Both the position numbers and the translations under genes were made by a program. Positions 4,594 to 64,000 of a stretch of 64,000 nucleotides of DNA are shown one piece after another. The notes under the pieces are model-generated. The model made no database searches. It saw nothing but the letters and a program-made list of their open reading frames with translations, and was not told the origin of the DNA. Positions within the stretch are counted from its first letter, which is position 1; each line of letters starts with the position of its first letter. Origin of the DNA: Amycolatopsis suaedae (GTDB taxonomy: Bacteria; Actinomycetota; Actinomycetes; Mycobacteriales; Pseudonocardiaceae); contig NZ_SFCC01000002.1 in assembly GCF_004214935.1 (NCBI RefSeq), forward strand, positions 496,001 through 560,000. The letters run 5' to 3'.

Positions 4594-5570
4594 CAGGCGG
4601 CTTCCTCCGATTCGGTCGCGGTGTGTCCGGTCAGGGCGAGGAAAACCTCGTCGAGGCTGGGCTGTGCGAGGGAGAAGGCGGCGACGGAGATGCCGGCGCC
4701 GGTGAGGACGGCCAGTGCGTTCGCGGCCCGCTCGTCGTCGTGGGCCGACGCCGAGAGGGCCACCGGGTCGGACTCGGGGCGGACGGTCGTGTCGAGTGCC
4801 CGGGACAGCACGGTGATCGCCTCGTCCCTGCGCCCGGCGTCCCGTAGCCGGACGTGCAGGACGCTGGCGCCGACCGAGGACTTCAGCTCGCCGACCGTGC
4901 CCTCGGCGATGACCTTGCCGGTCTCGATCACGGCGATCCGGTCGGCCAGCTGGTCGGCCTCCTCCAGGTACTGGGTGGTGAGCAGGACCGTCGTCCCGGT
5001 GCCGATCACCGCCCGCACGATCTCCCAGACCTGGTTGCGGCTGCGGGGATCCAGGCCGGTGGTCGGTTCGTCGAGGAACAGCAGGTCCGGTGTCACCACG
5101 ATGCTCGCCGCGGTGTCCAGCCGCCGGTACATCCCGCCGGAGTAGGTCTTGGCCTGCCTGTGGGCGGCCTCGGTGAGCTCGAACGCCTCGAGCAGGTCGT
5201 CGGCCCGCCGTTTGGCGGCCGCGCGGGAGTAACCGAGCAGCCTGCCCAGCATGACCAGGTTCTCGAACCCGGTCATGCCCTGGTCGACGGCCGCGAACTG
5301 GCCGGTCAGCCCGATGCGGCTGCGGACCGCGTCCGCCTCGGTGCGGATGTCGTGGCCGAACACCGTCGCCGTGCCGGCGTCCGGCTTGAGCAGGGTGGCG
5401 AGCATGCGGATGGTGGTCGTCTTGCCGGCCCCGTTCGGGCCGAGGACGCCGTAGACGACGCCCTGCGGGACGGTCAGGTCGACGCCGTCGACCGCTCGTT
5501 TCTTGCCGAAGTTCTTCACCAGTCCCGAAGCTGAGATGGCATGGGTGTACTGCTTGTCCAATGTGGACAC
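4593..5570 (-). CDS. DrrA-type ABC exporter ATP-binding protein
   Basis: A 325-residue ATPase that pairs with the downstream ABC-2 permease. Walker A GPNGAGKT is at 44-51, the signature YSGGM at 143-147 and Walker B LFLDEP at 164-169. The roughly 100-residue C-terminal extension after the ATPase core, ending [13 protein letters not shown], is characteristic of DrrA proteins. The GTG at 5570 is chosen because GGGAG lies about 6 bases upstream; an ATG 21 bases earlier lacks a ribosome site. The first codons are encoded over a GTCCA-N3-TGGAC palindrome (5556-5568). Confidence 0.9.
5556..5568. repeat. Dispersed palindrome GTCCA-N3-TGGAC (copy 1)
   Basis: Exact 13-mer with centre ATG, inside codons 2-5 of the DrrA-type gene. 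One of seven copies of TCCA-N3-TGGA found by eye in the window. Confidence 0.7.
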
Positions 5571-5799
5571 ATTCGCTCCCGGAGAAGGCATGGGTCTAGC
5601 GCGGAAGGCACTCGGTTTGAGGCCGGGATTTCCGGCCGGATTCGAAGATACCCCCCGATTCCGGAATCGCAAAATATGCGAATCACGATTCGCGTTTCGC
5701 TGACCTGCGGTTATGTGGCCATGTATCCGTACGGTGACGGCAAGGCGGCGAATCGTGCCATGCCATAACAACCCGCCTGATCGAAGCGAGTTGTGTGGC

Positions 5800-6174
5800 A
5801 TGAGAAGAGTGCTGATCGCCCTTGCCGCCGGCGTGCTGTTGTCCGCGTGTGGAATGTCGGGCCAGGACCCCGGGGCACCGGCAACGAGAACGGTGATCTC
5901 GCAGGTCACTGTCACCCAGTCGCCGACGTCGGTGACGACTTCACCGACGACCACCACGTCGGCGCCGGTCGTGACGGAGTTGCTGGATCCGCCTGATCCG
6001 CCGCCTGCTCCGACTCCGAAGAAGAAGGCCACGACGCCCAAGGAGGAACCGGCGAGCGTCTACTACAAGAACTGCACCGAGGCGCGGAAGGCCGGTGCGG
6101 CACCGGTGTACCGGGGCGACCCCGGCTACGCCCCGCACCTGGACCGCGACGACGACGGCGTCGGCTGCGAGTGA
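5800..6174 (+). CDS. Secreted lipoprotein with C-terminal excalibur domain
   Basis: A 124-residue exported protein. The signal peptide ends in the lipobox LLSACG, then comes a Thr/Ser/Pro-rich spacer (about residues 25-75) with a short Lys patch, and a C-terminal excalibur motif: [12 protein letters not shown] followed by [10 protein letters not shown]. Excalibur domains are small calcium-binding modules on cell-surface proteins of Gram-positive bacteria. The ATG at 5800 is chosen because it puts the signal peptide at the N-terminus; earlier in-frame starts add sequence unlike an export signal. It stands alone, with a 229-bp upstream gap in which I see nothing clear. Confidence 0.82.
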
Positions 6175-6183
6175 CGGATCGCC

Positions 6184-7338
6184 TCAGAACTCGACGGACA
6201 CTGTGTCAACGTCGCGGAAGGGCGCCATCGACGCGGCCTCCCGCTCGAGCGCCTCCCGGGTGCGGCGGGGCAGATCGGCCGCCGTCTCGACGCGGACGGT
6301 CAGCCGCCTGCCCTGCTTGCGTGGCCGCCACACACCGGCGAACTCGCCCCGGTCCAGCACTACGCCGGGGTTGCCGGAGAACCGCCACACCCGCTGGTGC
6401 CACGCCTTGTCCGGCACTACCGTCGCCTTGTCCTTCGTGGCCAGGTACGGGTCGTAGGGCGGGAGCAGCCGGACGCCGTCCGGCTCCGGTGGATCACGCA
6501 GCAGGTCGGCGTCGACGGCCCAGCAGCGGCGGCCCGCGTAGTCGACCTCGGTCAACTCGCCGGCCACCAGGGCCCACGACCGTTCGGCGAACGCGGGTGA
6601 CGCACCGGTCCACCACGCGAACGCGCCCGGGCCCGCCGGACCGTGACAGCGCAGGAACCGCCTGACCAGCTCGGCGCGGGCGTCGTCGTTGTGCGGCAAC
6701 GGTTTTCCCAGCCACTCCCGGGTGGAGGTGAACCGGGCCGGTGAGGTCTCCGGGACGAAACACACGGTCGCGGACAGACCGGCGACGTAGAGCGCGAAGC
6801 GCACGAGGCTCTCGCCGTGGGTGTTGGACCGCAGGCCGTCCGGGGAGTCCCACACCTTCTTCGGCGAGATCTCCGGGCGGACCAGCTTCGCCAGCCGTTG
6901 CCCCAGCTCGTCCTTGGTCGGCGTGCCGTCGAGTGCGTCCGGCAACGCGTCGAGGGTGAGCCGGACGGCGGTGCTCGCGTCGAGCCCGAACTTCGTCAGG
7001 TGGTCACGCGCGCCCTGGATGAACCGCGCACACGACTCCTCGTCGTCGGGCCGCAGGCCCGCGGTGAACACGGCGGCGTCGGTGGTCGGCACCACGTGCG
7101 GCGCGCCACGCAGGCTCCACACCTGGATCAGGTCCTTGCTGTCGAGCAGCGCGGCCGAGACGTCCCCGGGCGTGAGCCCGTCCAGTCGCGTGTGGAGGGT
7201 CAGTGCCGCCGAGCCCGGCGGCGTGTGCTGCACGCCCGCCCGGCCTGCCGCGGCGAGCAACTCCCCGGCGGGTGCCCGGCGGTGCAGTCCGTGCGCCGCC
7301 AGCCGAGCTCGTACGACCTGTCTCCGATCGACCCGCAC
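6184..7338 (-). CDS. Winged-helix DNA-binding domain protein (HTH_42 / AlkZ-like)
   Basis: A 384-residue cytoplasmic protein of the winged-helix family found in AlkZ/YcaQ-type proteins. Family features are the N-terminal RARLAAHGL, the central SKDLIQVWSLRGAPHVV, and the late DLLRDPPEPDGVRLLPPYDPYL and WRPRKQGRRL segments. AlkZ relatives are glycosylases that unhook DNA crosslinks or alkylated bases, and some protect antibiotic producers, but most members have no tested activity. The start is a GTG with TAACGT exactly 6 bases upstream and no ribosome site, which suggests a leaderless transcript. That promoter overlaps the stop of the flavin reductase gene upstream. Confidence 0.85.
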   Translation of the reverse strand: MRVDRRQVVRARLAAHGLHRRAPAGELLAAAGRAGVQHTPPGSAALTLHTRLDGLTPGDVSAALLDSKDLIQVWSLRGAPHVVPTTDAAVFTAGLRPDDEESCARFIQGARDHLTKFGLDASTAVRLTLDALPDALDGTPTKDELGQRLAKLVRPEISPKKVWDSPDGLRSNTHGESLVRFALYVAGLSATVCFVPETSPARFTSTREWLGKPLPHNDDARAELVRRFLRCHGPAGPGAFAWWTGASPAFAERSWALVAGELTEVDYAGRRCWAVDADLLRDPPEPDGVRLLPPYDPYLATKDKATVVPDKAWHQRVWRFSGNPGVVLDRGEFAGVWRPRKQGRRLTVRVETAADLPRRTREALEREAASMAPFRDVDTVSVEF

Positions 7339-7347
7339 CCCCTCACG

Positions 7348-7896: not shown

Positions 7897-7928
7897 CGTG
7901 TGCTCCTCTCGTTCAGGCGACGATTAAG

Positions 7929-7942
7929 TGCATGTACATGCA
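7929..7942. promoter_or_regulatory. Palindromic operator, probable MarR site
   Basis: TGCATGTACATGCA is a perfect 14-bp palindrome in the gap between the divergent flavin reductase (start 7896) and MarR-family gene (start 7973). The position and symmetry fit a dimeric MarR operator acting on both genes. Confidence 0.65.
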
Positions 7943-7972
7943 GATAATGCGTGTGCAGGTATGCTGTGTCAA

Positions 7973-8383: not shown

Positions 8384-8394
8384 CCCGCGGACGT

Positions 8395-10096: not shown

Positions 10097-10986
10097 TTCG
10101 CCGCCGCCTCGGTGTAGTGGCGGAGGAACAGCTCCTCCAGCGTCGGCGGCTGGCTGGTCAGGCTGCGCACGCCGACCTGGGTCAGCTGCCGCAGCGCCTC
10201 GTCCAGCGAGTGGGTCTCGACGTCGAACCGGACCCGGTTGCCGTCGATGCGCAGGTCGTGGATGTCCCGCAGGCCGGACAGGCCGTTGGGTGCCCCGGCC
10301 AGCTCCGCGGTGATCGACGTGCGGGTGAGGTGCCGCAGGTCGGCCAGCGTCCCGGTCTCGACCGTGCGCCCGTTGCGGATGATGCTCACCCGGTCGCACA
10401 GCGCCTCGACCTCGGCGAGGATGTGACTGGACAGCAGCACGGTGCGGCCCTGCTCGCGTTCTTCCTGGATGGCGTACTGGAACGTGGCCTCCATGAGCGG
10501 GTCGAGGCCGGAGGTCGGCTCGTCCAGGATCAGCAGGTCCACATTGGACGCGAGTGCCGCGACGATGGCGACCTTCTGCCGGTTGCCCTTGGAGTAGGTG
10601 CGCCCCTTCTTCTTGGGGTCCAGCTCGAAGCGCTCGATGAGTTCCTTGCGGCGGCGCTGGTCCAGCCCGCCACGCAGCCGGCCGAGCAGGTCGATGACCT
10701 CGCCGCCGGAGAGATTCGGCCACAGGTTGACGTCGCCGGGTACGTAGGCCAGCCGCCGGTGCAGGCTCGCCGCGTCCTTCCACGGGTCGCCGCCGAGCAG
10801 GCGGACGGCGCCGGAGTCGGCACGCAGGAGTCCGAGCAGAACGCGGACGGTGGTCGACTTGCCCGCGCCGTTGGGCCCCAGAAACCCGTGTACTTCGCCG
10901 GTGGCGACGTTGAGGTCAAGGCCGTCGAGGGCCTTGGTCCGGCCGAACGATTTGTGCAGGCCGGAGATGGCGATGGCGTTGTCCAT
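10093..10986 (-). CDS. ABC exporter ATP-binding protein
   Basis: A 297-residue ATPase serving the 546-residue permease downstream. Walker A GPNGAGKS is at 37-44, the signature is the YSKGNRQK form usual for this subfamily, Walker B gives [12 protein letters not shown], and the C-terminal domain ends [11 protein letters not shown]. Its start at 10986 faces a GbsR/MarR-type regulator at 11081, which is the natural candidate to control the exporter. A GTCCA-N3-TGGAC palindrome (10537-10549) lies just before Walker B. Confidence 0.92.
10537..10549. repeat. Dispersed palindrome GTCCA-N3-TGGAC (copy 2)
   Basis: Exact 13-mer with centre CAT, inside the exporter ATPase gene where it encodes Ser-Asn-Val-Asp using the AT-rich codon AAT. 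Confidence 0.7.
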
Positions 10987-17895: not shown

Positions 17896-20442
17896 GTGAC
17901 GGATCAGCCACGGCGTCCTCGGCACGCCGCGCCCGACCCCGACGACGAGCCGCAGGCGGGTTCGCTCGCGGAGGACCCAGGCACAGGGTGGCGGCAGTCG
18001 CTCGACCGGCTCACCGGGTCGCAGGCGTCCCCGCCCCCGCCGTCCGCGCCGCGCCGGGCCGGGCAGCGCCAGCCTGCCACGGAGCAGCCGACCGTGCAGA
18101 ACCTGCAGCCGGTCCAGCGTCCGTCCGCCGAGCCGCAGCTGACCAGCGTCCTGGCGGCACCCGCGCCGGCCACCCAGAGCATCACGCCACCGCCGCCCCG
18201 GCCGGAACCGAGCAGCCCGATGGCGCTGCCCGATCCGGGTACGGAGAGCGTGCTGCCGCCCAGCACCAGCTCCGGAACCGGCCCCGGCACCGGGCGGGGA
18301 ACCGGGACCGGAACGGGGTCGCAGACCGGTTCCGGCGCGTTCCCCGGTACCTCGCGGCGGACGTCGTCGCGGACCTCGCGGCGGGGCAGGCTCGGTGCGG
18401 GCCTGGTCGAGGTGCCGCCGGTGCCCTACCGCGACCCGGCGTCGGCGGTGCTGACCGACCCGGTGGTGTCGGAGGAGAAGCGGTTCTGCGGCAACTGCAG
18501 TGCGAAGGTGGGCCGCGGCAGCAACGGGCAGCCGGGGTCGCCGGAGGGCGTGTGCCCCAAGTGCGGGCAGCGGTTCTCGTTCAAGCCCAAGCTGCGTCCG
18601 CACGAGATCGTCGGCGGGCAGTACGAGGTGCTCGGTGCGCTCGCCTACGGCGGGCTGGGCTGGATCTACCTGGCGCAGGACCACAACGTCAGCGACCGCT
18701 GGGTCGTCCTCAAAGGACTGATCGACACCGGGGACACCACCGCGCTGGCCGCGGCGGTCAACGAGACGCGGTTCCTCGCCGAGGTCGAGCACCCGAACAT
18801 CGTCAAGATCTACAACTTCGTGCAGCACCCGGACTCGGCGACCGGGACGTCCATCGGCTACATCGTGATGGAGTACGTCGGCGGGCAGTCGCTGCGTCAG
18901 CTGGCGCTGGCCCACCACCGGGAGAGCGGGCGGCCGGAGCCGCTGCCGATCGGTCAGGTCATCGCCTACGGGTTGGAGATCCTGCCCGCGCTGGGGTACC
19001 TGCACAACCAGGGCATGCTCTACTGCGACCTCAAGCCGGACAACGTCATCCAGACCCACGAGCAGCTCAAGCTGATCGACCTGGGTGCCGTGCGGCGGAT
19101 GGACGACTACGAGAGCCCGCTGTTCTTCACCACCGGCTACAGCGCGCCGGAGCTGGCCACGCACGGTGCGACGGTCGCGTCGGACCTGTACACGGTCGGG
19201 CGCACGCTGGCCGTGCTGAGCTTCGAGTTCACCGGCTACACGACCACGTACAAGACGTCGCTGCCCGGTGCCGACCAGGTGCCGCTGTTCGCGCTCTTCG
19301 GGTCGTATCACCGGTTCCTCAAGCGGGCCACGCACACCGACCCGGACCGCCGGTTCCTGTCCGCGGAGGACATGGCCGACCAGCTCACCGGTGTGCTCCG
19401 CGAGATCATGGCGATGGGCACCGGCAAGCCGCGGCCCGGTGCGTCCACTGTGTACGGACCGGAGATGCGGACCTTCGGTGTCGACATGGTGGTGCCCGAG
19501 CCGGGTGCCAGCGTGCCGCTGCCGCCGCCGGACGAGGTCGTGACCGGCCTGCCGATCCCGCAGGTCGACACCGACGACCCGGCGGCGGGTGTGCTGGCGT
19601 CGATCACGGCGGCGGAGCCGAGGGAGGCCATCGAGGCCCTGACCAACGCGCCGCACAACTCGATCGAGGTCCGGCTGCGGATCGTCCGGGCCAGGATCGA
19701 ACTCGGCGAGCTGGCCGAGGCGAACCGGCAGCTGCAGGCCGCCCAGTACCTGGCGGTGAAGAACGGCTTCCCGCACGACTGGCGGATCGACTGGTACCGA
19801 GGGCTGATCGAGCTGGCTGGCGGGCGGCCGAAGGTCGCGCAGGTGGCGTTCGAGGCCGTCTACGACGACCTGCCCGGTGAGATCGCGCCGAAGCTGGCGC
19901 TGGCGGTGAGTGCCGAGTGGGTCGGCGACTACTTCGCGGCGTCACGCATGTACGAGCTGGTCTGGCGAACGGACCACTCGTACGTCAGTGCGGCGTTCGG
20001 GCTGGCCCGCGTCTACCTCGCCCAGGGCGCCAGGGGCGGTGCGATCGAGGTACTGGAGTCGGTGTCGCCGTCGTCGACGCACTTCGTCGCGGCCCAGGTG
20101 GCGGCCATCAAGATCAAGACCCGGGTGAGCGGGCCGAAGGAGGGCGTCTCCGAGCGGGACCTGGTCGAGGCCGGGGCACGGCTGGAGCGGCTGAACCTGG
20201 ACGCCGAGCGGCGAACGGCGCTGTCGGCGGAGGTGCTGGAGGCCGCGCACCAGTGGGTCCGCTCCGGGCGGAACCAGCCGACGCAGGGGCTGAGCGTGCT
20301 GGGCTGCGCCCTGCACGAGCGGGATCTGCGCTTCGGGCTGGAGCGGTGCTACCGCTCCCTGGCCCGCCTGGCCTCCACCGCGGCCGACCGCATTTCCCTG
20401 GTCGACAAGGCGAACGCCATCCGCCCCCGGACCCTCACCTAG
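17896..20442 (+). CDS. pknG: Serine/threonine protein kinase PknG
   Basis: An 848-residue soluble kinase with PknG architecture. The rubredoxin-like metal site has Cys198, 201, 220 and 223. The kinase domain starts near 243 with a Gly loop (AYGGLGWIYLA), Lys273, the catalytic loop YCDLKPDN (Asp378) and DLG at 395-397 in place of DFG. A TPR domain follows to the C-terminus. PknG controls 2-oxoglutarate metabolism in response to amino acids through GarA/OdhI phosphorylation. The N-terminal region before the first Cys is about 90 residues longer than in the Mycobacterium tuberculosis protein and rich in Pro, Thr and Gly. GTG at 17896 has a GGGGG stretch about 9 bases upstream. Confidence 0.96.
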   Translation: MTDQPRRPRHAAPDPDDEPQAGSLAEDPGTGWRQSLDRLTGSQASPPPPSAPRRAGQRQPATEQPTVQNLQPVQRPSAEPQLTSVLAAPAPATQSITPPPPRPEPSSPMALPDPGTESVLPPSTSSGTGPGTGRGTGTGTGSQTGSGAFPGTSRRTSSRTSRRGRLGAGLVEVPPVPYRDPASAVLTDPVVSEEKRFCGNCSAKVGRGSNGQPGSPEGVCPKCGQRFSFKPKLRPHEIVGGQYEVLGALAYGGLGWIYLAQDHNVSDRWVVLKGLIDTGDTTALAAAVNETRFLAEVEHPNIVKIYNFVQHPDSATGTSIGYIVMEYVGGQSLRQLALAHHRESGRPEPLPIGQVIAYGLEILPALGYLHNQGMLYCDLKPDNVIQTHEQLKLIDLGAVRRMDDYESPLFFTTGYSAPELATHGATVASDLYTVGRTLAVLSFEFTGYTTTYKTSLPGADQVPLFALFGSYHRFLKRATHTDPDRRFLSAEDMADQLTGVLREIMAMGTGKPRPGASTVYGPEMRTFGVDMVVPEPGASVPLPPPDEVVTGLPIPQVDTDDPAAGVLASITAAEPREAIEALTNAPHNSIEVRLRIVRARIELGELAEANRQLQAAQYLAVKNGFPHDWRIDWYRGLIELAGGRPKVAQVAFEAVYDDLPGEIAPKLALAVSAEWVGDYFAASRMYELVWRTDHSYVSAAFGLARVYLAQGARGGAIEVLESVSPSSTHFVAAQVAAIKIKTRVSGPKEGVSERDLVEAGARLERLNLDAERRTALSAEVLEAAHQWVRSGRNQPTQGLSVLGCALHERDLRFGLERCYRSLARLASTAADRISLVDKANAIRPRTLT

Positions 20443-20462: not shown

Positions 20463-20676
20463 CAAAGCACGTGAAGGCCACCTCCGGCGCGGCAGCCTCA
20501 CCAGTCACATCCGGCCCAGCAGACGCAGCCGTCACCACGAAAGAGACCCAGCAACGTCCCCCAATGTGGCATTGGGGAACTTGAACTCCCCCAATGCCAC
20601 ATTGGGGGCACACAACACCCGGACTTTGCCGGGACCTTGACATCTCACGTGGTGAAGGTGGCCTTCACGTGCTTTG
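20463..20676. repeat. Split nested palindrome, GTGAAGG family (copy 2), containing a second element
   Basis: Arms of 21 bp (20463-20483 and 20656-20676, CAAAGCACGTGAAGGCCACCT and its complement) are separated by 172 bases instead of the 13-base loop of the other copies. The interior holds a different palindrome family (20558-20608). It fills most of the gap between pknG and the converging thioesterase gene; no gene is seen in this 250-bp stretch. The arrangement looks like one repeat interrupted by another. Confidence 0.75.
20558..20608. repeat. Nested palindrome, CCCCAATG family
   Basis: Perfect 20-bp arms (20558-20577 and 20589-20608) with an 11-base loop. Each arm is itself a hairpin: CCCCAATG and CATTGGGG around TGG in the left arm and CCA in the right. 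The element can therefore form one long stem or two short ones. It lies in the middle of the split repeat 20463-20676. Confidence 0.85.
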
Positions 20677-22902: not shown

Positions 22903-24441
22903 ATGGGACTGAACCGGAGAGATCTTCTGCGAGGCGCCGCCGCGGCGGGCGCGCTCGGCGTGGCGTGGCCGTTGAGCAGCAGGCTGACCGTGGCGCAGGC
23001 CGAGGAGGCCGCGCATCAGCTCGGGGTGCGCTGGGACGACGGCCCGTTCACCCTCGGTGTCGCCTCGGGTGACCCGGTCGCCGACGGCGTCGTGCTGTGG
23101 ACGCGGCTGGCGCCCCAGCCGCTCGCGGAGGAGCAGCCGCTGCCGGACACCGTCCAGGTCGACTGGACCGTCGCGGCCGACCGGGACTTCCGCCGAGTCG
23201 TCAGCAGCGGCAGCGTTGCCGCCACGGCGGCCCGCGGGCACAGTGTCCACGTGCCACTGCGCGGCCTGGAGCCGGGCCTGCGGTACTACTACCGGTTCAC
23301 CGCCCTCGGCCGGACCAGCCGTACCGGCCGGACCCGCACCGCGCCGGACGGCCGGGTCACCAGGGTCAGGTTCGCCTCGGCCAACTGCCAGGCGTTCCAC
23401 GACGGGTTCTACGCGGCACACCGCGGCATCGCCCGGGAGGACCTCGACTTCGTCGTCCACCTCGGCGACTACGTCTACGAGCACGGCAAGGTCGGCGGCA
23501 ACCCGGTGCGCGACCACGAGGGTCCCGAGGTGACGACGCTGCCCGCCTACCGCAGGCGGCACGCGTTGTACAAGGGCGACCCGTCGCTGCGGGAGGCGCA
23601 CGCCGCGCACCCGTGGTTCCTGACCTGGGACGACCACGAGGTGGTCAACGACTACAGCGGCACCTCGCCGTCGCTGCGGGCCCGGCGCGACGCCGCGTAC
23701 CAGGCGTGGGTGGAGCACATGCCGGTCGACGCCCCGAACCCGCTCACCCCGCCGGTCTACAAGCAGCGGCGGTGGGGCAACCTGCTCGATCTATCCATTT
23801 TGGACCTCCGGCAGTTCCGTTCGGCGCAGAACCTGCCGGACGGCACCATTCTCGGCGCGGAGCAGAAGGCGTGGCTCAAGCAGCGGGTCGACCAGGCAGG
23901 CGACGCCTGGCACTGCTGGGTCAACTCGATCATGCTCAGCCAGCTGGCCAGGAAAGGCGGCGGCTACTACTTCACCGACCAGTGGGACGGTTTCCTCGCC
24001 GAGCGCAAGGAGGTGCTGTCCCACGTGCACGAGGCGGGCATGCGGGACCTCGTGGTGATCACCGGTGACTGGCACTCGGCCTTCGTCGACGACATCCGGC
24101 CCGACTTCGACAACCCGGACAGCCCGGTCATCGGCACCGAGTTCACCGCCCACTCGGTGGCCTCGGGGGCGTACTCGCCGGAGTGGAACGCCACGAACGG
24201 GCCGGTCATGGGCGCGGCCAACCCGCACCTCAAGTACTTCGAGGGCAACCGCTATGGCTACGACGTCTACGAGGTCAACCCCCGCAGGTGGAGCACGCAC
24301 ATGCGGGTGATCGGCGACCGCAGGGACCCACGGTCGCCGGTGAGCACCCTGACCACCTTCCACGTGGACCGGGGCAGGGCCGGGTCGTGGGAGGACAGGG
24401 CCACCGCGGACTCCCCTGCCCAGTACCGCAGGAGGACGTGA
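22903..24441 (+). CDS. phoD: PhoD-family alkaline phosphatase, Tat-exported
   Basis: A 512-residue secreted phosphatase or phosphodiesterase. It begins with a twin-arginine signal (NRRDLLRGAAAAG). An N-terminal PhoD domain with fibronectin-like repeats carries GVASGDPVADGVVLWTRL. The metallophosphatase core has ASANCQ, HLGDYVYEHG, WDDHEVVNDYSG, and VITGDWHSAF, supplying ligands for calcium and iron. It would release phosphate from phosphodiesters such as teichoic acids in the cell wall. Its stop lies 14 bases before the SRP RNA gene. Confidence 0.95.
   Translation: MGLNRRDLLRGAAAAGALGVAWPLSSRLTVAQAEEAAHQLGVRWDDGPFTLGVASGDPVADGVVLWTRLAPQPLAEEQPLPDTVQVDWTVAADRDFRRVVSSGSVAATAARGHSVHVPLRGLEPGLRYYYRFTALGRTSRTGRTRTAPDGRVTRVRFASANCQAFHDGFYAAHRGIAREDLDFVVHLGDYVYEHGKVGGNPVRDHEGPEVTTLPAYRRRHALYKGDPSLREAHAAHPWFLTWDDHEVVNDYSGTSPSLRARRDAAYQAWVEHMPVDAPNPLTPPVYKQRRWGNLLDLSILDLRQFRSAQNLPDGTILGAEQKAWLKQRVDQAGDAWHCWVNSIMLSQLARKGGGYYFTDQWDGFLAERKEVLSHVHEAGMRDLVVITGDWHSAFVDDIRPDFDNPDSPVIGTEFTAHSVASGAYSPEWNATNGPVMGAANPHLKYFEGNRYGYDVYEVNPRRWSTHMRVIGDRRDPRSPVSTLTTFHVDRGRAGSWEDRATADSPAQYRRRT
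23793..23805. repeat. Dispersed palindrome TCCA-N3-TGGAC (copy 3)
   Basis: Core TCCATTTTGGA with 5' A in place of G, inside phoD. The codons used (CTA TCC ATT TTG GAC) include several that are rare in this genome. Confidence 0.7.
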
Positions 24442-24588: not shown

Positions 24589-26556
24589 GTGGCATTAGCG
24601 CTGTACCGCAAGTACCGTCCGGCGACGTTCGCCGAAGTGGTCGGGCAGGAGCACGTCACCGAACCGCTGCGCACCGCGCTGGCGGCCGGCCGGATCAACC
24701 ACGCCTACCTGTTCTCCGGGCCGCGTGGCTGCGGGAAGACGTCCAGCGCACGCATCATGGCCCGCTCGCTCAACTGCGCGCAGGGGCCGACGCCCGACCC
24801 GTGCGGCACCTGTGACTCGTGTCGCGCGCTGGCGCCGGAGGGGCCGGGCAGCGTCGACGTCACCGAGCTCGACGCGGCCAGCCACGGCGGTGTCGACGAC
24901 GCCCGTGAGCTGCGCGACCGCGCGTTCTACGCGCCTGCCGAGTCGCGCTACCGGGTGTTCATCATCGACGAGGCGCACATGGTCACCACGCAGGGTTTCA
25001 ACGCCCTGCTGAAGATCGTCGAGGAACCGCCAGAGCACCTGATCTTCATCTTCGCCACGACCGAGCCGGACAAGGTGCTGCCCACCATCCGCTCGCGTAC
25101 GCACCACTACCCGTTCCGGCTGATCCCGCCGAGCGCGATGCGTGAGCTGCTGGAGCGCAACGTCGCCGCGGAGGGGGTGCCGGTCGAGCCCGCGGTGTAT
25201 CCGCTGGTCATCCGCGCGGGTGGCGGGTCGGCGCGGGACACCCAGTCGGTGCTGGACCAGCTGCTGGCCGGTGCCGGTCCGCAGGGTGTCACCTACGACC
25301 GGGCCGTCGCGCTGCTCGGCGTCACCGACGTCGCCCTGATCGACGACATGGTCGACGGGCTGTCCGCCGACGACGCCACGGCCGTCTTCGGCACCGTCGA
25401 CAAGCTCGCCGAGGCCGGGCACGACCCGCGCCGGTTCGCCACCGACCTGCTGGACCGCCTGCGGGACCTGGTGCTGCTGCGGTCGGTTCCCGACGCGGCG
25501 ACCCGCGGGCTGGTGTCGGCTCCGGAGGAGGAGCTGAGCCGCATGGTCGCCCAGGCCGAGCGGATCGGCGCCGCCACCCTGTCCCGGTACGCCGAGATCG
25601 TCCACAATGGACTGCTGGAGATGCGGGGGGCCACGGCCCCCCGGCTGCTGCTCGAACTGCTGTGTGCCCGGATGCTGCTGCCGTCGGTCGCCGACGACGA
25701 GGCGTCGGTGCTGCAGCGGATGGAACGGCTGGAACGACGGCTGACCGCCGGTGGGCCCGCTCCCGCGGCTCCGGCCGAGCAGGCCGCGGCTCCGGAGCGC
25801 ACCTTCCAGCGGCCGTCCCAGCGGCAGGCGGACGCCCCGGCTCCGGCCGCGCCGCCGGAGCCGAAGCCCGCGGCAGCGCCGCCGCCCAAGGCACCCCAGC
25901 CGGAGCCGAAGCCCGAGCCTGAGCCCGAGCCGGTCGAGCCGGCCCCCGAGCCCGCACCGAGCGGCGCGCTGGACGCCGCCGCCATCCGGCGGGTGTGGCC
26001 CGAGCTGCTGGCCGCGATCCGCAAGCAGCCGGGTGGGCGCAGCACCGAGGCCATGCTCACCCAGGCGACGGTGCAGTCGGTCGACGGTTCCGAGGTCGTG
26101 CTCGCCCACACCGCCGAGCCGCTGGCCAGGCGCCTTTCCGACAAACACAACACCGACAAGATCGCCAGCGCACTGCACGAGGTGCTCGGCGGTCAGTGGC
26201 GAGTCAGCTGTGTGCACGGCAACGCCGCGGTGAAGGCCCAGCCGGCGCCGCGGCAGCAGCAGGCCAGCCAGCAGGCGCCGGAGCGCCGGTCGTTCCAGCG
26301 CCCGTCCGGTGGGCAGCAGCAGGCGCCGCCGAAGCCGCCCGAGCGCCCGGCACTGCCGGAGCCGGATATTCCGCTGCCGCCCGAGCCGGAGCCCGAGGAG
26401 GACGAGGCCGAGTACGTCGCCGCCGCGGCGCAGCCGGCCACCGCCCCGCCCCCGGACCTGCCACCGCCGCCTCCGGCGGCCCCCGTCGTCGACGACGAGG
26501 AGGCCAGGGCACACAAGCTGCTCTCCGACCAGCTCGGCGCCCGCCCGCTCGACTGA
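24589..26556 (+). CDS. dnaX: DNA polymerase III subunits gamma and tau
   Basis: A 655-residue clamp-loader ATPase. The opening YRKYRPATFAEVVGQEHV is universal, Walker A is GPRGCGKT at 44-51, the zinc ligands are Cys63, 72, 75 and 78, Walker B gives IDEAHMVT, and the sensor loop reads IFATTEPDK. After about residue 390 comes a long Pro/Ala/Glu-rich linker with a conserved tau-type segment in between. GTG at 24589 has TACGCT 6 bases upstream and no ribosome site, so the mRNA may be leaderless. I see no slippery frameshift signal. Confidence 0.96.
   Translation: MALALYRKYRPATFAEVVGQEHVTEPLRTALAAGRINHAYLFSGPRGCGKTSSARIMARSLNCAQGPTPDPCGTCDSCRALAPEGPGSVDVTELDAASHGGVDDARELRDRAFYAPAESRYRVFIIDEAHMVTTQGFNALLKIVEEPPEHLIFIFATTEPDKVLPTIRSRTHHYPFRLIPPSAMRELLERNVAAEGVPVEPAVYPLVIRAGGGSARDTQSVLDQLLAGAGPQGVTYDRAVALLGVTDVALIDDMVDGLSADDATAVFGTVDKLAEAGHDPRRFATDLLDRLRDLVLLRSVPDAATRGLVSAPEEELSRMVAQAERIGAATLSRYAEIVHNGLLEMRGATAPRLLLELLCARMLLPSVADDEASVLQRMERLERRLTAGGPAPAAPAEQAAAPERTFQRPSQRQADAPAPAAPPEPKPAAAPPPKAPQPEPKPEPEPEPVEPAPEPAPSGALDAAAIRRVWPELLAAIRKQPGGRSTEAMLTQATVQSVDGSEVVLAHTAEPLARRLSDKHNTDKIASALHEVLGGQWRVSCVHGNAAVKAQPAPRQQQASQQAPERRSFQRPSGGQQQAPPKPPERPALPEPDIPLPPEPEPEEDEAEYVAAAAQPATAPPPDLPPPPPAAPVVDDEEARAHKLLSDQLGARPLD
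25610..25622. repeat. Dispersed palindrome GTCCA-N3-TGGAC (copy 4)
   Basis: Exact 13-mer with centre CAA inside dnaX, encoding Val-His-Asn-Gly-Leu with the AT-rich codons AAT and GGA. Confidence 0.7.
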
Positions 26557-33859: not shown

Positions 33860-34965
33860 GCGACGAGGTTCTGGTCGAGATCTCCGATCTCAAGGTCCAC
33901 TTCCCGATCAAGCACGGTGTCGTGTTCGACCGCACGATCGGGCATGTGTACGCGGTCGACGGCGTCGACCTGACCATTCACAAGGGCGAGACCTACGGCC
34001 TGGTCGGCGAGTCCGGCTGCGGCAAGTCGACGCTGGGCCGGGCCATGCTGCGGCTGACCGAGCCCACGTCCGGCTCGGTCGTCTTCGACGGCACCGACGT
34101 CGCCAAGCTCAAGGGCGAGACCCTGCGCAAGGCACGCCGCCGCATGCAGATGATCTTCCAGGATCCACTGTCCAGTTTGGACCCGCGGCAGTCGGTGGAG
34201 TCCATCCTGGTCGAGGGCATGCGGGCACACGGCCTGGACAAGGACAAGGAGTCGACCGCCAAGCGGCTGCGTGAGCTGCTCGCGGCCGTCGGTCTCCCGG
34301 AGAGTTCGCTGCGCAAGTACCCGCACGAGTTCTCCGGCGGGCAGCGGCAGCGCATCGGCATCGCGCGGGCGCTGGCCGTCGAGCCGGACCTGATCGTGGC
34401 CGACGAGCCGGTGTCGGCGCTGGACGTGTCGGTGCAGGCGCAGGTGGTCAACCTGCTGGAGGAACTGCAGGACAACCTGGGCCTGACCTACCTGGTGATC
34501 GCGCACGACCTCGCGGTGGTGCGGCACATCTCCGACCGCATCGGCGTGATGTACCTGGGTTCGCTGGTGGAGGAGGCCGACTCGGACGCGCTGTACGAGC
34601 AGCCGCTGCACCCGTACACCAAGGCGCTGCTGTCGGCGATCCCGGTACCGGACCCGGTCGTCGAGGACAGCCGGGAGCAGATCCTGCTCGCCGGCGACCT
34701 GCCGTCGCCAGCCAACCCGCCGAACGGTTGCCGGTTCCACACCCGGTGCCCGTGGAAGCAGGAGACCCGCTGCGACACCGAACGTCCGGCGTTGCGGGAG
34801 GTCGAGGGCGCCGCGCCGGGGCAGCGCGTCGCCTGCCACTGGGCGGAGGACATCCGCGACGGCAAGATCAAGCCGCACGAGGTGAAGCCGGAGCTGGTCG
34901 AGACCGGTGCGCTGAACCCGGACGTCCCGCACGTCGCCTCGGTCGTGGAGGCCATGGAGAGTTAG
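33856..34965 (+). CDS. Oligopeptide ABC transporter ATPase, DppF type
   Basis: A 369-residue ATPase that pairs with DppD. Walker [10 protein letters not shown]-loop [11 protein letters not shown], signature FSGGQ, Walker [13 protein letters not shown], and the C-terminal [15 protein letters not shown] cysteine cluster. Ser-Ser-Leu in the Q-loop is encoded TCC AGT TTG, inside a GTCCA-N3-TGGAC palindrome, whereas DppD uses TCG TCG CTG for the same residues. Last gene of the operon; a nested palindrome follows 5 bases later. Confidence 0.95.
34170..34182. repeat. Dispersed palindrome GTCCA-N3-TGGAC (copy 5)
   Basis: Exact 13-mer with centre GTT inside the DppF-type gene. The paralogous gene 1 kb upstream encodes the same three residues with GC-rich codons (33161-33169), so the palindrome is not required by the protein. 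Confidence 0.75.
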
Positions 34966-39619: not shown

Positions 39620-40606
39620 TCAGTCCAGACGCCGACGGGCCCGACCGTTCCGGCTGGCCATTCGTTCGCCGACCTCGGCGAGGGCGGCCCGCAGGTGCTC
39701 CGGTTCGAGCACCTCGACGCCGTCGCCGAGGGAGGTCAGCTGGGCCAGCGCGATGTCCTCGCGTTCCAGCGCCAGGTCCGCTTCGGCCCACCCGTCGGCG
39801 TCCGGCTCGCCCAGCCGCAGCAGCGAGTCGGCGATGTCCTCCGGGCCGATGATCCGGCGTAGGTGCCGCACCGCGGCCGCGCTCAACCTGGCGGTGACCC
39901 GGGTGGGCAGCGGCAGCCGTTCGAAGTCGGCCGACGAGGCCCGCCACCAGCCGGCGAGGTTGAAACCGGGTGGCCGCTCGAACCGTTCGTCGGTCGCGGT
40001 CGCCGACACGATCCGGGACACCCGGTAGGTGCGCGGGCTGCCGTCGACCCCGGCGACGAGGTACCAGACACCGGCCTTGAGGACGAGCCCGAGCGGCTCC
40101 AGCAGGCGTCGCGCGACGCCGTCGCGGCGCTGGTAGCCGATCTCCAGCCGGCGCGACTCCCACACGGCCTGGGCTACCGTCGCCAGCTCGGCGGGTTCGT
40201 CCTCGCCCCGGAACCAGCCCGAGGCGTCCAGGTGGAACCGGCCCGCGACGTGTTCGGCCTGCTCGCGCAGGCCCTCGGGCATGCTGGCCGACACCTTGGC
40301 GTGCGCGGCCGACACGGCGGTGCCCAGGCCCAGCGCGGCCAGCGCGTCGGGTACGCCGAGCGCGAAGATGGCGACGGCCTCCCGCGAGGTGAGGCCGCCA
40401 AGCCGCGCCTTCCAGCCGTCGACCAGCCGCACCCCACCGTGCCGGCCGGGCTCCGTCCACAGTGGAACGCCAGCCTCCCGCAGGGCGGCGAGGTCGCGGT
40501 GCATCGTCCGTTCCGAGACGCCCAGCGCCTCGGCCAGCTCGGGCACCGTCGCCGCTCGCCTGCCCTGCAGGGTGAACAGCAGCGCTACCAGCCTCTCCGC
40601 TCGCAC
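39620..40606 (-). CDS. WYL-domain transcriptional regulator (YafY type)
   Basis: A 328-residue regulator with an N-terminal DeoR-like helix-turn-helix (TVPELAEALGVSERTMHRDLAALREAGVPL) and a WYL sensor domain in which the signature reads GVWYLVAGVDGSPRTYRVSRI near residue 185. WYL domains bind small ligands or nucleic acids. GTG at 40606 has TAGTTT 7 bases upstream, inside the end of leuA, so it can be transcribed apart from leuA although only 10 bp separate the genes. Confidence 0.9.
   Translation of the reverse strand: MRAERLVALLFTLQGRRAATVPELAEALGVSERTMHRDLAALREAGVPLWTEPGRHGGVRLVDGWKARLGGLTSREAVAIFALGVPDALAALGLGTAVSAAHAKVSASMPEGLREQAEHVAGRFHLDASGWFRGEDEPAELATVAQAVWESRRLEIGYQRRDGVARRLLEPLGLVLKAGVWYLVAGVDGSPRTYRVSRIVSATATDERFERPPGFNLAGWWRASSADFERLPLPTRVTARLSAAAVRHLRRIIGPEDIADSLLRLGEPDADGWAEADLALEREDIALAQLTSLGDGVEVLEPEHLRAALAEVGERMASRNGRARRRLD
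40455..40467. repeat. Dispersed palindrome GTCCA-N3-TGGA (copy 6)
   Basis: Core TCCACAGTGGA with 5' G but 3' A, inside the WYL regulator gene. Confidence 0.6.
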
Positions 40607-50560: not shown

Positions 50561-51826
50561 GTGGCGCTCGTGGTCCAGAAATACGGTGGTTCCTCACTGG
50601 AGAGCGCTGACCGGATCAAGCGCGTGGCCGAGCGGATCGTCGCCACCAAGAAGGCCGGCAACGACGTCGTGGTGGTCTGCTCGGCCATGGGAGACACCAC
50701 CGACGAGCTGCTCGACCTCGCTCAGCAGGTCAACCCGGTGCCCCCGGAACGCGAGATGGACATGCTGCTCACCGCGGGCGAGCGCATCTCGAACGCGCTG
50801 GTGGCGATGGCGATCTCCGCGCAGGGTGCGCAGGCCTGGTCGTTCACCGGCTCGCAGGCCGGTGTCGTGACGACGTCGGTGCATGGCAACGCGCGCATCA
50901 TCGACGTCACGCCGAGCCGGGTCACCGAAGCACTCGAGCAGGGTTACGTGGCGCTGGTCGCCGGCTTCCAGGGTGTCTCGCAGGACACCAAGGACATCAC
51001 CACCCTCGGCCGCGGCGGGTCGGACACCACGGCCGTCGCCCTGGCGGCGGCACTCGGCGCCGACGCCTGCGAGATCTATTCCGATGTGGACGGTGTCTAC
51101 ACGGCGGACCCGCGCATCGTCCCGGACGCGCGCAAGCTCGACACCGTCCCGTACGAGGAGATGCTGGAGCTGGCCGCGAGCGGGTCGAAGATCTTGCACC
51201 TGCGGTCGGTCGAGTACGCCCGCCGCTACGGCGTGCCCATCCGGGTCCGTTCTTCCTACAGCGACAAGCCGGGCACGACGGTGGCCGGATCTATCGAGGA
51301 GATCCCCGTGGAACAAGCGTTGATCACCGGTGTGGCCCACGACCGCTCCGAGGCCAAGATCACCGTCACCGGCGTGCCGGACCACGCCGGCGCCGCCGCC
51401 CGCATCTTCCGGGTGGTCGCCGACGCGGAGATCGACATCGACATGGTGCTGCAGAACATCTCCAGCACCACCTCCGGCCGCACCGACATCACGTTCACGC
51501 TGTCGAAGGCCAACGGCCCGAAGGCCGTCAGCGAGCTGGAGAAGATCAAGGCCGAGCTGGACTTCGCCGCCGTGCTCTACGACGACCACGTCGGCAAGGT
51601 CTCGCTGGTCGGCGCCGGCATGCGCTCGCACCCGGGCGTCACGGCGACGTTCTGCGAGGCGCTGGCCAAGGTGGGCGTGAACATCGAGATCATCAACACC
51701 TCGGAGATCCGGATCTCCGTTCTCATCCGGGACGCGCAGCTCGACGACGCGGTGCGCGCGATTCACGATGCATTCGAACTCGGCGGTGACGAAGAAGCCG
51801 TCGTCTACGCGGGAAGTGGTCGGTAG
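50561..51826 (+). CDS. lysC: Aspartate kinase, alpha subunit
   Basis: A 421-residue enzyme that phosphorylates aspartate at the head of the Lys/Thr/Met/diaminopimelate pathway. The catalytic motif [20 protein letters not shown] is at the start, [16 protein letters not shown] binds substrate, and two ACT domains from about residue 265 bind Lys and Thr. The length equals that of Corynebacterium aspartokinase. GTG at 50561 has GAGGAGG 7 bases upstream. The asd gene follows immediately. Confidence 0.97.
51308..51826 (+). CDS. Aspartate kinase beta subunit, internal start within lysC
   Basis: An in-frame GTG at codon 250 of lysC is preceded by GAGGAG 6 bases upstream. Initiation there gives a 172-residue protein consisting of the two ACT regulatory domains, exactly the size of the beta subunit made from an internal start in Corynebacterium glutamicum lysC. 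Alpha-2 beta-2 enzymes depend on this second product for feedback control. Confidence 0.7.
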
Positions 51827-60896: not shown

Positions 60897-60918
60897 GAAG
60901 CGAAGAGAGGATCGAAGA

Positions 60919-61395
60919 ATGGCCAACTCGCCGATCACCAGTCCACTGAGTGAGAGCGACAAGGAGGTCACCGGCAACGTTCTGCAGGCCACCCTGGTCG
61001 ACCTCGTCGACCTCTCGCTCATCGCGAAGCAGGCCCACTGGAACGTCGTCGGCAAGAACTTCCGCAGCGTCCACCTCCAGCTCGACGAGCTGGTGGACGT
61101 GGCGAGGACCTACACCGACAGCGTCGCCGAACGGGCCAACGCCATCGGGGTCTCGCCGAACGGCAAGGCGAAGACCGTCGTCGAGAGCTCCGGTCTGCCC
61201 GACTACCCCGACAACTGGCAGTCCGACGAGGCGACCATCAGCGCGATCGTCGACATCCTCGCCGAGCTGATCCAGCGGCTGCGGGCCCGGATCGACGAAA
61301 CCGACAAGAGCGACCTGGTCACCCAGGATCTGCTGATCGAGATCACGAACAAGCTGGAAGAGGCCCACTGGATGTGGCAGGCGCAGCGCGCCTGA
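60919..61395 (+). CDS. dps: Dps-family ferritin-like DNA-binding protein
   Basis: A 158-residue protein of the Dps group. Ferroxidase ligands His40, His52 and Asp56 sit in HWNVVGKNFRSVHLQLDEL, and the rest is a four-helix bundle. It would oxidise Fe(II) with peroxide, store iron and protect DNA. GAGAGG precedes the start. Placed after ohr, it points to a joint response to peroxides. Confidence 0.94.
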   Translation: MANSPITSPLSESDKEVTGNVLQATLVDLVDLSLIAKQAHWNVVGKNFRSVHLQLDELVDVARTYTDSVAERANAIGVSPNGKAKTVVESSGLPDYPDNWQSDEATISAIVDILAELIQRLRARIDETDKSDLVTQDLLIEITNKLEEAHWMWQAQRA

Positions 61396-61401
61396 CGCCT
61401 T

Positions 61402-61433
61402 CGAAGGGCCCGGCCGCCCGGCCGGGCCCTTCG
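61402..61433. terminator. Bidirectional terminator between dps and the S9 peptidase
   Basis: Perfect 14-bp stem CGAAGGGCCCGGCC / GGCCGGGCCCTTCG with a 4-base loop, in the 39 bp between the converging stop codons. Confidence 0.85.
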
Positions 61434-61434
61434 G

Positions 61435-63273
61435 TCACTCCATCCCGAGCGCGCGGCGGGCGAAACCGACCTCGATGGCCGTCTGCTTGATGGTCTCGGC
61501 GATCACCAGAGAGCCGTGGCCCGCGTCGTAGCGATAGAACTCGTACGGCGCGTCCCGGCGGCGCAGCCGGTCCAGGTAGTTCTCGATCTGCCGGATCGGG
61601 CAGCGCGGGTCGTTGTCGCCTGCCAGCACGAGCACGGGGGCGGCGACCGCCTCGACGTAGGTGATCGGCGAGCACTCGTCGTACACGGCGGGCACGTCCT
61701 CCGGCGAGCCACCGAACAGCGCCCTGTCGAACGAGCGCAGCTGCTCCATTTCGTCCTCGTACGCGGCGACGTAGTCGGCCACCGGCACGGCCGCGACCCC
61801 GGCCGCCCAGCGGGTCGGCTGTGTGCCGAGCGCGAGCAGCGTCAGGTAGCCGCCCCAGGAGCCGCCGTTGACGACACACCGCTTCGGGTCAGCCAGCCCG
61901 CTGCCGACGGCCCAGTCGTGCACCGCGGCGACGTCCTCCAGCTCGGTCAGGCCGGGCCTGCCCTCGATGGCGTCCCGCCAGGCCGAGCCGTATCCCGTCG
62001 ATCCGCGGTAGTTGACCTCAACGACGGCGAAACCGGCGTCCAGCCAGGTGGCGCGGTAGGCCGAGAACCGGTCCTCGTCGGCTGAATGCGGGCCACCGTG
62101 GAGGTTGAACACGGTCGGCAGCGGCCCGTCCGGTGCGTCGACGGGCCGGGAGATCAGGGCGTGGATGCGTCCGCCTGCTCCCTCGACGAACGCGTCACCG
62201 ATCGCCGCGGAGCCCGGTGCCCGGTCGCCCGGCGGGGACAGCAGGATGCGGTCGTCGCCGTCGGGGGTCCGCGCGCGGATCGACGACGGCTCGGCGCCGC
62301 TGGACCACGAGTACTCGACCGTCCCGTCCGGCCGGACGGAGGCGTTGCCGATGCTGCCTGCCGGGTTGTCCAGCGCGGTCAGCTCGCCGGTGGCGAGGTC
62401 GTAGCGGTGCAGCGAGCTGCGGCCCTGGTGGAAGTGGACGACCAGCAGCGCGTCTGCGGCCGGGTACCAGTCGGCGACGACCTCACCGGGCAGGTCGAGC
62501 GGCAACTCGGTCTCGGTGTCGGTCGCGGTGTCCCAGACGAGCAGCTCCTCGCGGCCACGGCGTTCGTGCAGCACGAGCAGCCGCTGGTCGCCCGCGACCG
62601 GCGAGAACGACAGCGGTGTGAGGCCCTTGCCCTGCCCGTCCCACTTGTCGGCGACGGTCCCGAATCCCGCCGTGGTGAGCACGCGGACGGCGGGGTGGCG
62701 GGAGTCACCGTGTTCGGAGTGCGAGATCGCCAGCAGCGTCTCGTCCCTGGACAGTGCGGCGACGGACGCGTCGTCGGCGTTCTCGTAGAAGCACTCGGTG
62801 CCCTCGGCGGTGACGGCGTAGAGCCTGCTGCCCTCGTCGGTGGAGACGCCGGCCGCGGTGAGCCGCTCGCCGATCTCCAGCCCGGCCGGGTAGCCGTCGG
62901 GCACCTCATTGAGCGCGGGAACGGCGTCGGTGTGGTCGCCGGTGAACGGCTGGCGCCGCCACGAGCCGAACTCGTCGCCGTCGGTGTCGTTGAACCACCA
63001 GACCCACTTGCCGTCGGGCGAGAGCGTGGCGTGCAGTGTGCCGTTGGGCCGGTCGGTCACGCGGCGGTGCTCGCCGGTGCGGCGGTCCCAGGTGTAGACC
63101 TCCCAGACGCCACTGGCGTTGGAGACGTACACGCAGGCGTCGGGTGCGTCCAGTGGCCAGCCGGGCAGGCTCATGCGTGCCGCGTGGAAGCGGGCTTGCC
63201 ACCGGTTCTCCGCCTCGGCGTCGGCGAAGAGGCGTTCGGGCACCTGCGCGGGGGTGTACGGCTCAGTGGTCAC
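61435..63273 (-). CDS. S9-family (prolyl oligopeptidase) serine peptidase
   Basis: A 612-residue intracellular peptidase. An N-terminal beta-propeller of about 350 residues contains repeats such as ATLSPDGKWVWWF. The catalytic alpha/beta-hydrolase domain follows with PTVFNLHGGPHS, YRGSTGYG, the nucleophile in GGSWGGY, the Asp in AGDNDPR and the His in DAGHGS. Such enzymes trim acylated or short peptides. GTG at 63273 is chosen; the ORF upstream would add a stretch of Arg/Pro-rich sequence. Confidence 0.92.
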   Translation of the reverse strand: MTTEPYTPAQVPERLFADAEAENRWQARFHAARMSLPGWPLDAPDACVYVSNASGVWEVYTWDRRTGEHRRVTDRPNGTLHATLSPDGKWVWWFNDTDGDEFGSWRRQPFTGDHTDAVPALNEVPDGYPAGLEIGERLTAAGVSTDEGSRLYAVTAEGTECFYENADDASVAALSRDETLLAISHSEHGDSRHPAVRVLTTAGFGTVADKWDGQGKGLTPLSFSPVAGDQRLLVLHERRGREELLVWDTATDTETELPLDLPGEVVADWYPAADALLVVHFHQGRSSLHRYDLATGELTALDNPAGSIGNASVRPDGTVEYSWSSGAEPSSIRARTPDGDDRILLSPPGDRAPGSAAIGDAFVEGAGGRIHALISRPVDAPDGPLPTVFNLHGGPHSADEDRFSAYRATWLDAGFAVVEVNYRGSTGYGSAWRDAIEGRPGLTELEDVAAVHDWAVGSGLADPKRCVVNGGSWGGYLTLLALGTQPTRWAAGVAAVPVADYVAAYEDEMEQLRSFDRALFGGSPEDVPAVYDECSPITYVEAVAAPVLVLAGDNDPRCPIRQIENYLDRLRRRDAPYEFYRYDAGHGSLVIAETIKQTAIEVGFARRALGME

Positions 63274-63323
63274 CCCCCGATCCTGCCAGCGGAGGGGTAC
63301 CGATCGGGGGACGGGGCCGTACT

Positions 63324-64000
63324 GTGTGCGGAGTGCGGGACGGTTTGGGGTCGACGGCGGCGGCGCGCGCCGAGTTCGCGGCACGGTTGCTGCGCCCGGG
63401 GATGCGGGTGCTGGACGTCGGTTGTGGCGCCGGGGTCATCAGCCGCATGCTCGCCACCTCGGTTCCGGACGTCCGTGTCGTCGGCGTGGACGAGGTGAAC
63501 CGGCTCGGGTCCGCACGGTCCATTGTGGACTTCGTCGGCGGTTCGGTGTACGCCCTGCCGCTGGCGGACGGGGCCGTGGACCTCGCGTTCGCGCACGGTC
63601 TGTTCGATCACCTGCGGGACCCGGCGGCGGCGCTGGCCGAACTGCACAGGGTTGTCCGGCCCGGCGGCAGGCTTGCTCTGTCCACTTCGGACTGGAGCCG
63701 GGCGAAGCTGCGGCCGAGGACGGCCAACGTCGACGCTGCCCTGCGGGGCTACTACCTGCTGCGCCGCAGACAGGGAGCGGACCCGTTCGCCGGAAAGCGG
63801 CTGGCTGATCTGGTGACCGCGGCGGGCTTCGCCGAGGTGCGTTCCCATGCCCGCTTCCGCGGTGACGTGGCCTACCGCGACCTGGCCAGGCAGGTGGAGG
63901 CAGCCCTCGCGGCCGCATTGGACACCCCGAGCCGCGACCACCAGCAGCTCACCAGCGCGGCCAGAAGCGCCTGGGTCTGGTCCCGAGCAGGCGACGGCGA
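63324..64000 (+). CDS. SAM-dependent class I methyltransferase (3' end outside window)
   Basis: An open frame of 225 codons from GTG at 63324 that runs off the window. SAM-binding motif I is VLDVGCGAGVISRM near residue 35, motif II VVGVDEVNRL, and the post-motif DGAVDLAFAHGLFDHLRDP and LHRVVRPGGRLALST fit the Methyltransf_11/UbiE-like type. The substrate is unknown. A GTG three codons downstream (63333) is an alternative start. Confidence 0.85.
   Translation, partial: MCGVRDGLGSTAAARAEFAARLLRPGMRVLDVGCGAGVISRMLATSVPDVRVVGVDEVNRLGSARSIVDFVGGSVYALPLADGAVDLAFAHGLFDHLRDPAAALAELHRVVRPGGRLALSTSDWSRAKLRPRTANVDAALRGYYLLRRRQGADPFAGKRLADLVTAAGFAEVRSHARFRGDVAYRDLARQVEAALAAALDTPSRDHQQLTSAARSAWVWSRAGDG
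63518..63530. repeat. Dispersed palindrome GTCCA-N3-TGGAC (copy 7)
   Basis: Exact 13-mer with centre TTG inside the methyltransferase gene, encoding Arg-Ser-Ile-Val-Asp with ATT for Ile. Confidence 0.7.

Follow-up and report, generated by a model that had tools for sequence, protein, structure and literature searches.

Short palindromes that are dispersed over a bacterial chromosome and bound by a dedicated protein are already known as a kind. The sites of SlmA and Noc, nucleoid occlusion proteins that inhibit division, are short dispersed palindromes with a dimeric reader that does not act mainly at promoters, and they are depleted round the terminus. Copies of matS are concentrated in the terminus region. 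According to the part of the source available, matS was found as an over-represented motif of Ter (PMC4786541). For HIP1 of cyanobacteria, a clade-restricted, dispersed and over-represented palindrome whose function is left unsettled in the available sections of the source, a methylation-dependent repair model has been proposed (PMC4390886). In actinobacteria, the available text on Gbn of Streptomyces describes a protein that reads GATCWT in more than 2,800 bound regions, also regulatory ones, and reports orthologues in Amycolatopsis (PMC9239103).

The palindrome described here, with the full form GTCCACWGTGGAC, comes from Amycolatopsis, a genus known for antibiotics, and bears some likeness to each of these systems. 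With the SlmA and Noc sites it shares its shortness, its dispersal over the chromosome and a dimeric reader (putative here) mainly off promoters, but it has another sequence, belongs to another phylum, occurs in hundreds of copies and displays no consistent exclusion from the terminus. Like matS, the site of MatP, it is a gapped palindrome of 13 bases in which 5-base arms flank a 3-base centre; its sequence is nevertheless different, and it is spread chromosome-wide and is thinner near the terminus in one relative (G004). HIP1, as covered in the sections available, is an 8-mer without a gap and is linked to orphan methyltransferases (PMC4390886), whereas the present motif spans 13 bases, is gapped and graded, and is rarer. 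Gbn is comparable in its sequence-specific, chromosome-wide binding (binding being putative here), but the motif given in the available part of that source is unrelated to the 13-mer (PMC9239103). No description of the motif, its intragenic confinement or its clade was found in the open-access papers searched, in which exact-string matches were unrelated by title.

Over-Representation in the Window and in the Genome

The window is the whole 64-kb stretch of DNA that was analysed (G000:C22:496001-560000), from a host genome of 7.54 Mb in 32 contigs with a completeness of 99.4%. Named relatives of its dnaX place this genome in Amycolatopsis (Pseudonocardiaceae), as does G004, a genome from the same genus with a second contig that matches a record of Amycolatopsis sp. 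YIM 10 at 100% over 20 kb. TCCA-N3-TGGA (TCCANNNTGGA) occurs seven times in it (starts 5557, 10538, 23794, 25601, 34171, 40456 and 63519). The first-pass annotation, made on the sequence by itself, had expected about 0.5 copies, a figure that is borne out by dinucleotide shuffles of the window (mean 0.50, maximum 3, none of 100 reaching seven). Six of its starts were right; the remaining one, 25611, marks where the copy beginning at 25601 ends. The seven sites are, at their full 13 bases:

5556..5568, gene on the minus strand: GTCCAATGTGGAC, likely start of a DrrA-type ABC ATPase gene; 0 relatives aligned there
10537..10549, gene on the minus strand: GTCCACATTGGAC, ABC ATPase gene, codons TCC AAT GTG GAC
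23793..23805: ATCCATTTTGGAC, one arm base off, phoD, codons TCC ATT TTG GAC
25600..25612: GTCCACAATGGAC, dnaX, read GTC CAC AAT GGA C
34170..34182: GTCCAGTTTGGAC, dppF/oppF-type ABC ATPase gene, codons TCC AGT TTG GAC
40455..40467, gene on the minus strand: GTCCACAGTGGAA, one arm base off, WYL-domain regulator gene, CCA CTG TGG
63518..63530: GTCCATTGTGGAC, methyltransferase-domain gene, codons TCC ATT GTG GAC

Five of the seven extend to GTCCA-N3-TGGAC and all seven 3-base centres are as they had been annotated. The host genes were described as members of unrelated families, with which we agree. The accompanying claim that every copy lies inside a gene applies to six, each within a predicted gene; the one at 5556 overlaps the likely start of its gene. 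With one mismatch allowed, GTCCANNNTGGAC has 13 matches in the window versus 2.85 expected. Near matches previously proposed at 19446 (listed as 19443) and 63680 were recovered, and a third one, at 51083, is absent from the one-mismatch list.

Genome-wide, GTCCA-N3-TGGAC (GTCCANNNTGGAC) is present in 395 copies in the own genome of 7.5 Mb and TCCANNNTGGA in 627, compared to 3 and 17, respectively, for the reversed control, which is lenient (protein-preserving shuffles are stricter). Only an arm spacing of 3 is enriched: in 464 kb of the own genome, 27 copies have this spacing versus 0-4 at each of the other spacings from 0 to 15, with 1.15 expected per spacing. Among 113 sites from the genus, tallied with G013 left out, the preferred centres are CAG/CTG (n = 42), CAA/TTG (n = 19) and AAG/CTT (n = 12), and outside the 13 bases there is little conservation beyond a weak T/C adjoining the arms. 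These preferences define the full motif as GTCCACWGTGGAC, of which the own genome holds 174 copies.

Selection on DNA Rather Than on Protein

Genes were called with our own codon-score script. Of the 27 sites in 464 kb of the own genome, 26 are wholly genic (415 kb) and the 27th, at 5556, spans a predicted start. The 50 kb of intergenic DNA contain no wholly intergenic copy, versus about 3 expected at the coding density, and in the set of relatives 2 of 68 copies are wholly intergenic. When synonymous codons are shuffled so that every protein is preserved, a mean of 3.94 copies remains (maximum 9 in 100 shuffles) versus the 26 observed, and for the full motif 0.06 (maximum 1) versus 8. The codon-shuffled control proposed in the first-pass annotation therefore does not reproduce the count. 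Shuffling the order of the codons lowers the mean to 0.96, from which it follows that peptides capable of carrying the motif are also in excess, roughly four-fold.

Of the 26 genic copies, 25 are read as g TCC ANN NTG GAC and the last one in a different frame. The protein sequence around these 25 copies differs. At the 23 ST[VLM]D peptides, Thr is encoded 13 times by ACT or ACA, codons that account for 4.5% of Thr. Rare codons are required least often in the preferred frame, and a frame bias is thus to be expected from selection at the DNA level; taken alone, the bias is no argument for a protein motif. It is nonetheless, together with the peptide-level part of the raw excess (3.94 versus 0.96), what speaks for a coding artefact of favoured peptides and codons. 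The chance of such an artefact is practically negligible, as the excess persists in protein-preserving shuffles and sites are conserved by position, the frame 1 and frame 2 copies at 25600 and 40455 included; we consider it refuted. A hairpin in the mRNA was likewise rejected: further palindromes of the 5-N3-5 type in these genes are barely enriched (1102 versus 983 expected), and GTCCA ranks first (26 versus 4.05).

Enrichment is graded. In 806 kb of coding sequence from two genomes, sites with zero to four mismatches number 15, 39, 85, 228 and 1259, versus 0.07, 2.1, 22.7, 198 and 1326 in synonymous shuffles, which amounts to 225x, 19x, 3.8x and 1.2x for zero to three mismatches, fold values that rest on small expected numbers. 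One-mismatch sites without the central A/T show no excess (1 versus 1.37), and the changes that are tolerated affect the outer G (7 versus 0.07) and the inner C (18 versus 0.13). A curve of this shape is expected for selection on binding affinity. Extrapolated, the excess of about 114 sites with zero to two mismatches in 806 kb would mean some 1000 sites in a genome of 7.5 Mb. The suggestion in the first-pass annotation that selection acts on DNA rather than on protein thus has strong support, from the synonymous shuffles and the rare codons as well as from the conserved positions and the graded excess, and the motif copies are almost certainly DNA sites under selection.

Positional Conservation across Relatives

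For the neighbourhood of dnaX, 80 kb segments of 10 relatives were compared with the window. Loss of the motif from related orthologues had been named beforehand as evidence to the contrary; the motif is mostly kept, with all ten arm positions retained in 19 of 29 aligned site-genome pairs versus 4.77 expected from windows of the same gene and phase, and is lost in some relatives. The arms of the dppF/oppF-type site at 34170 are kept in six of nine aligned relatives and the WYL-gene site at 40455 in four of seven, at 70-75% DNA identity. For two sites, G004 is the sole relative aligned: the arms at 10537 are kept there and the phoD site at 23793 is not. The arms at 63518 are kept in G019, and also in G004 once an alignment gap is allowed for. 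The dnaX site is kept in eight of the 10 relatives, another genus included, and is lost in G004 and in G013, a genome with a low motif count. In two of the eight, AGT (Ser) replaces AAT (Asn), which gives the preferred CAG centre. Sites hence turn over between relatives.

Among 80 named loci of the order, seven carry the motif at the dnaX offset, namely five of the seven Amycolatopsis records (decaplanina, coloradensis, xylanica, rifamycinica and circi), Kibdelosporangium and one Actinophytocola MAG; for two of them the codons were read, and the others were placed by offset. Among these loci, the site deviates by one base in A. anabasis and Prauserella, and is missing in A. arida, Thermocrispum and the remaining named records of Actinophytocola. 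Ordered pairs of 11 sequences, which share phylogeny and therefore yield effect sizes rather than independent tests, were 187 out of 262 kept within the genus versus 63.3 expected, 15 out of 27 with another genus versus 4.4, and 6 out of 17 with G013 as target versus 2.8. In this set G013 serves as target only and alignments had to span at least half a gene. When the comparison with G004 was widened, 7 of the 26 sites tried could be aligned, of which three are kept versus 1.3 expected; an alignment gap hid a fourth.

Distribution over Taxa, Chromosomes and Plasmids

GTCCA-N3-TGGAC occurs in all 40 genomes of the genus that were sampled, with 106-567 copies each (control 0-10). The lowest counts are those of G011 (n = 106) and G013 (n = 155), and such far lower numbers indicate that the motif system is not indispensable. 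In a survey of 200 genomes from the order, members of the home family have between 23 and 605 copies. Another family (f5) is high as well (529, 397 and 103), two are intermediate (f9 with 205 and 30, f12 with 100 and 67), and the remaining genomes have at most 51 copies each. Counts of the full 13-mer in 296 genomes from the class are 174 here, 26 in one relative from the family and at most two in each of the other 294 (control 0-1); as this sample includes two home-family genomes and none of f5, the result concerns the rest of the class.

Chromosomes were mapped with the sub-patterns GTCCACAGTGGACR and GTCCACAGTGGACG. On the complete chromosome of G004, with dnaA at its start, the 83 copies thin out toward the terminus (19, 20, 22, 14 and 8 per quintile; p about 0.008), as would be expected of an occlusion-type system, although accessory genes there could also be the cause. 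A 200 kb sample of its emptiest stretch holds six GTCCA-N3-TGGAC (30/Mb) and no full motif, compared to 50/Mb over the 436 kb closest to the start; note that the terminus stretches were chosen within a gap already observed. The complete chromosome of G145, from another genus, carries 98 copies without a significant trend (Rayleigh p 0.26, distance p 0.054), with its origin assigned on the model of G004, from the distance to dnaX. Terminus marking in the manner of matS was rejected on the opposite trend in G004 and the spread in G145. Regular spacing, which the first-pass annotation proposed to look for, was not seen on either chromosome: the gaps between sub-pattern copies look random (CV 1.10 in G004 and 1.02 in G145).

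Two of three plasmid-size replicons are near background, pAmyja1 with one copy in 92.5 kb and the second contig of G003 with one in 120 kb of its 186 kb. The third, an apparent phage-plasmid of 40 kb from Amycolatopsis sp. YIM 10 (second contig of G004), has three copies. Phage structural genes are present at L268-L269 on the latter and at L300-L301 on pAmyja1, and both replicons resemble phage-plasmids.

Putative Reader and Alternative Explanations

We infer a dimeric reader and, more weakly, a role in chromosome architecture or division. A dimeric protein probably binds the sites. A role in chromosome architecture, segregation or division rather than in transcription is our favoured reading, at even odds, based on the intragenic location, the number, the spread and the kept positions of the sites. 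GTCCACWGTGGAC would then be the recognition site of a putative sequence-specific, two-fold symmetric DNA-binding protein, acting chromosome-wide in nucleoid organisation, segregation or division control and not at promoters. Selection would maintain some 1000 sites of graded affinity per genome (extrapolated), nearly all of them genic where the protein sequence permits and often at conserved places. Against this reading count the turnover of sites between relatives, the far lower copy numbers of some genus members, a terminus thinning that is significant in G004 but not in G145, the apparent regulatory use of the 13-mer in other genomes, and the failure to find a binder among PadR proteins. 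The complete picture is tentative, at slightly below an even chance: a hitherto undescribed chromosome-wide positioning system that Amycolatopsis would share with several other genera of the family and with one or more additional families of the order, comprising about 1000 graded GTCCACWGTGGAC sites in open reading frames that are kept out of intergenic DNA and that selection holds across genera, to the point of imposing rare codons and tolerating amino-acid differences, with a putative dimer that organises the nucleoid or restrains division. To our knowledge, no nucleoid occlusion factor has been found in mycelial bacteria of this kind.

The foremost alternative, though an unlikely one, is that a global transcription regulator uses the sites as operators, with most of its binding inside genes (as for RutR of E. 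coli), and tunes many genes or roadblocks transcription. The graded mismatch curve is compatible with this too. Moreover, in two distant actinobacteria (L036 and L051), with two copies or fewer per genome, the 13-mer, exact or one-off, stands twice upstream of a PadR-family regulator, which makes a winged-helix dimer a plausible reader of the 13-mer. The paired TCCACTGTGGA-type palindromes at L036 3025-3070 and L051 ~2475-2528, upstream of PadR/Vir_act_alpha_C regulators, are candidate operators. They consist of the same 13-mer beside PadR genes but differ from the sites in Amycolatopsis by their position upstream of the gene and their number of at most two per genome. At the other 18 single-copy loci fetched outside the clade, the copies are partly genic and partly intergenic. 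Against such a regulator stand the unrelated families of the host genes in the window and the 27 copies in 464 kb, none of which is wholly intergenic. PadR itself was rejected as the reader in Amycolatopsis: a PF10400-type PadR has no match in the own genome, and no GTCCA-N3-TGGAC lies near the own PadR genes at the 14 of 19 loci fetched. The number of PadR genes has no clear relation with the site count over 16 genomes either, and the name of the home family is absent among the best 120 of 2011 homologues of the L051 PadR, most of which are unnamed. A dimer of the TetR, XRE, GntR or ribbon-helix-helix type would suit the geometry of the site.

Of the functions listed in the first-pass annotation, a DNA-binding or nucleoid-organisation site fits best, while uptake and methylation fit less well because of the long gapped palindrome, the graded tolerance, the obligatory central A/T and the near absence from intergenic DNA. 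It is quite doubtful, more so than the regulator, that a methyltransferase and biased mismatch repair make and keep the word as an iterated palindrome like HIP1, with a function or with none. Clade restriction, dispersal, palindromy, variable copy number and a genome-wide excess far above the codon-level expectation would agree with it; a gapped 13-base motif with graded enrichment and many conserved one-mismatch forms is, however, not a short all-or-none word, and the intergenic shortage and the near-background counts on two of three plasmid-size replicons are also at odds with it. Overlapping inverted DnaA boxes that titrate DnaA are improbable. The actinobacterial box has the consensus TTGTCCACA, with which the motif has GTCCACA and a weak T outside the arm (0.34) in common. 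Yet there is no TT flank (T at 0.34 and 0.22 in the two flanking positions), the full TTGTCCACA consensus is not matched, two boxes would overlap each other, and the GTCCAG-centred dppF site breaks the box but is kept in the six of nine relatives mentioned above. A recognition sequence for DNA uptake or conjugation is, if anything, marginally less probable still: genic dispersal and clade restriction would suit it, but the motif is palindromic and gapped, its positions are fixed, and pAmyja1 and the second contig of G003 are near background (the YIM 10 phage-plasmid with its three copies differs).

Under the preferred reading, a word selected at hundreds of genic places and overriding codon usage implies a major chromosome-binding protein, putative for now and apparently overlooked. 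The 13-mer (e.g., GTCCACTGTGGAC) provides a direct handle on this putative binder via pull-down, and the low-count genomes G011 and G013 are natural comparisons for locating its gene. The motif also illustrates that DNA signals shape proteins: DnaX has Asn or Ser where one palindrome is kept, and motif-compatible words are in roughly four-fold excess at the peptide level.

Other Repeats

CTCG-N-CGAG is in approximately four-fold excess in the window and L016-L035, but was dismissed as a codon or peptide effect, 161 of its 165 copies being in one frame. CCAATG-N3-CATTGG has five copies in 464 kb, two of them in the window at 20561 and 20591 (30 bases apart) and three in L016-L035. TGAAGG-N3-CCTTCA, often as GTGAAGGCCACCTTCAC, occurs 24 times in 464 kb versus 0.03 expected and is always intergenic. 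In the window, its GAAGG starts are at 20654, 34979 and 35009, and further copies are found in L016-L035. The copies often lie about 14 bases past a stop codon and in facing pairs between convergent genes, and look like a shared transcript-end element or a REP-like repeat.
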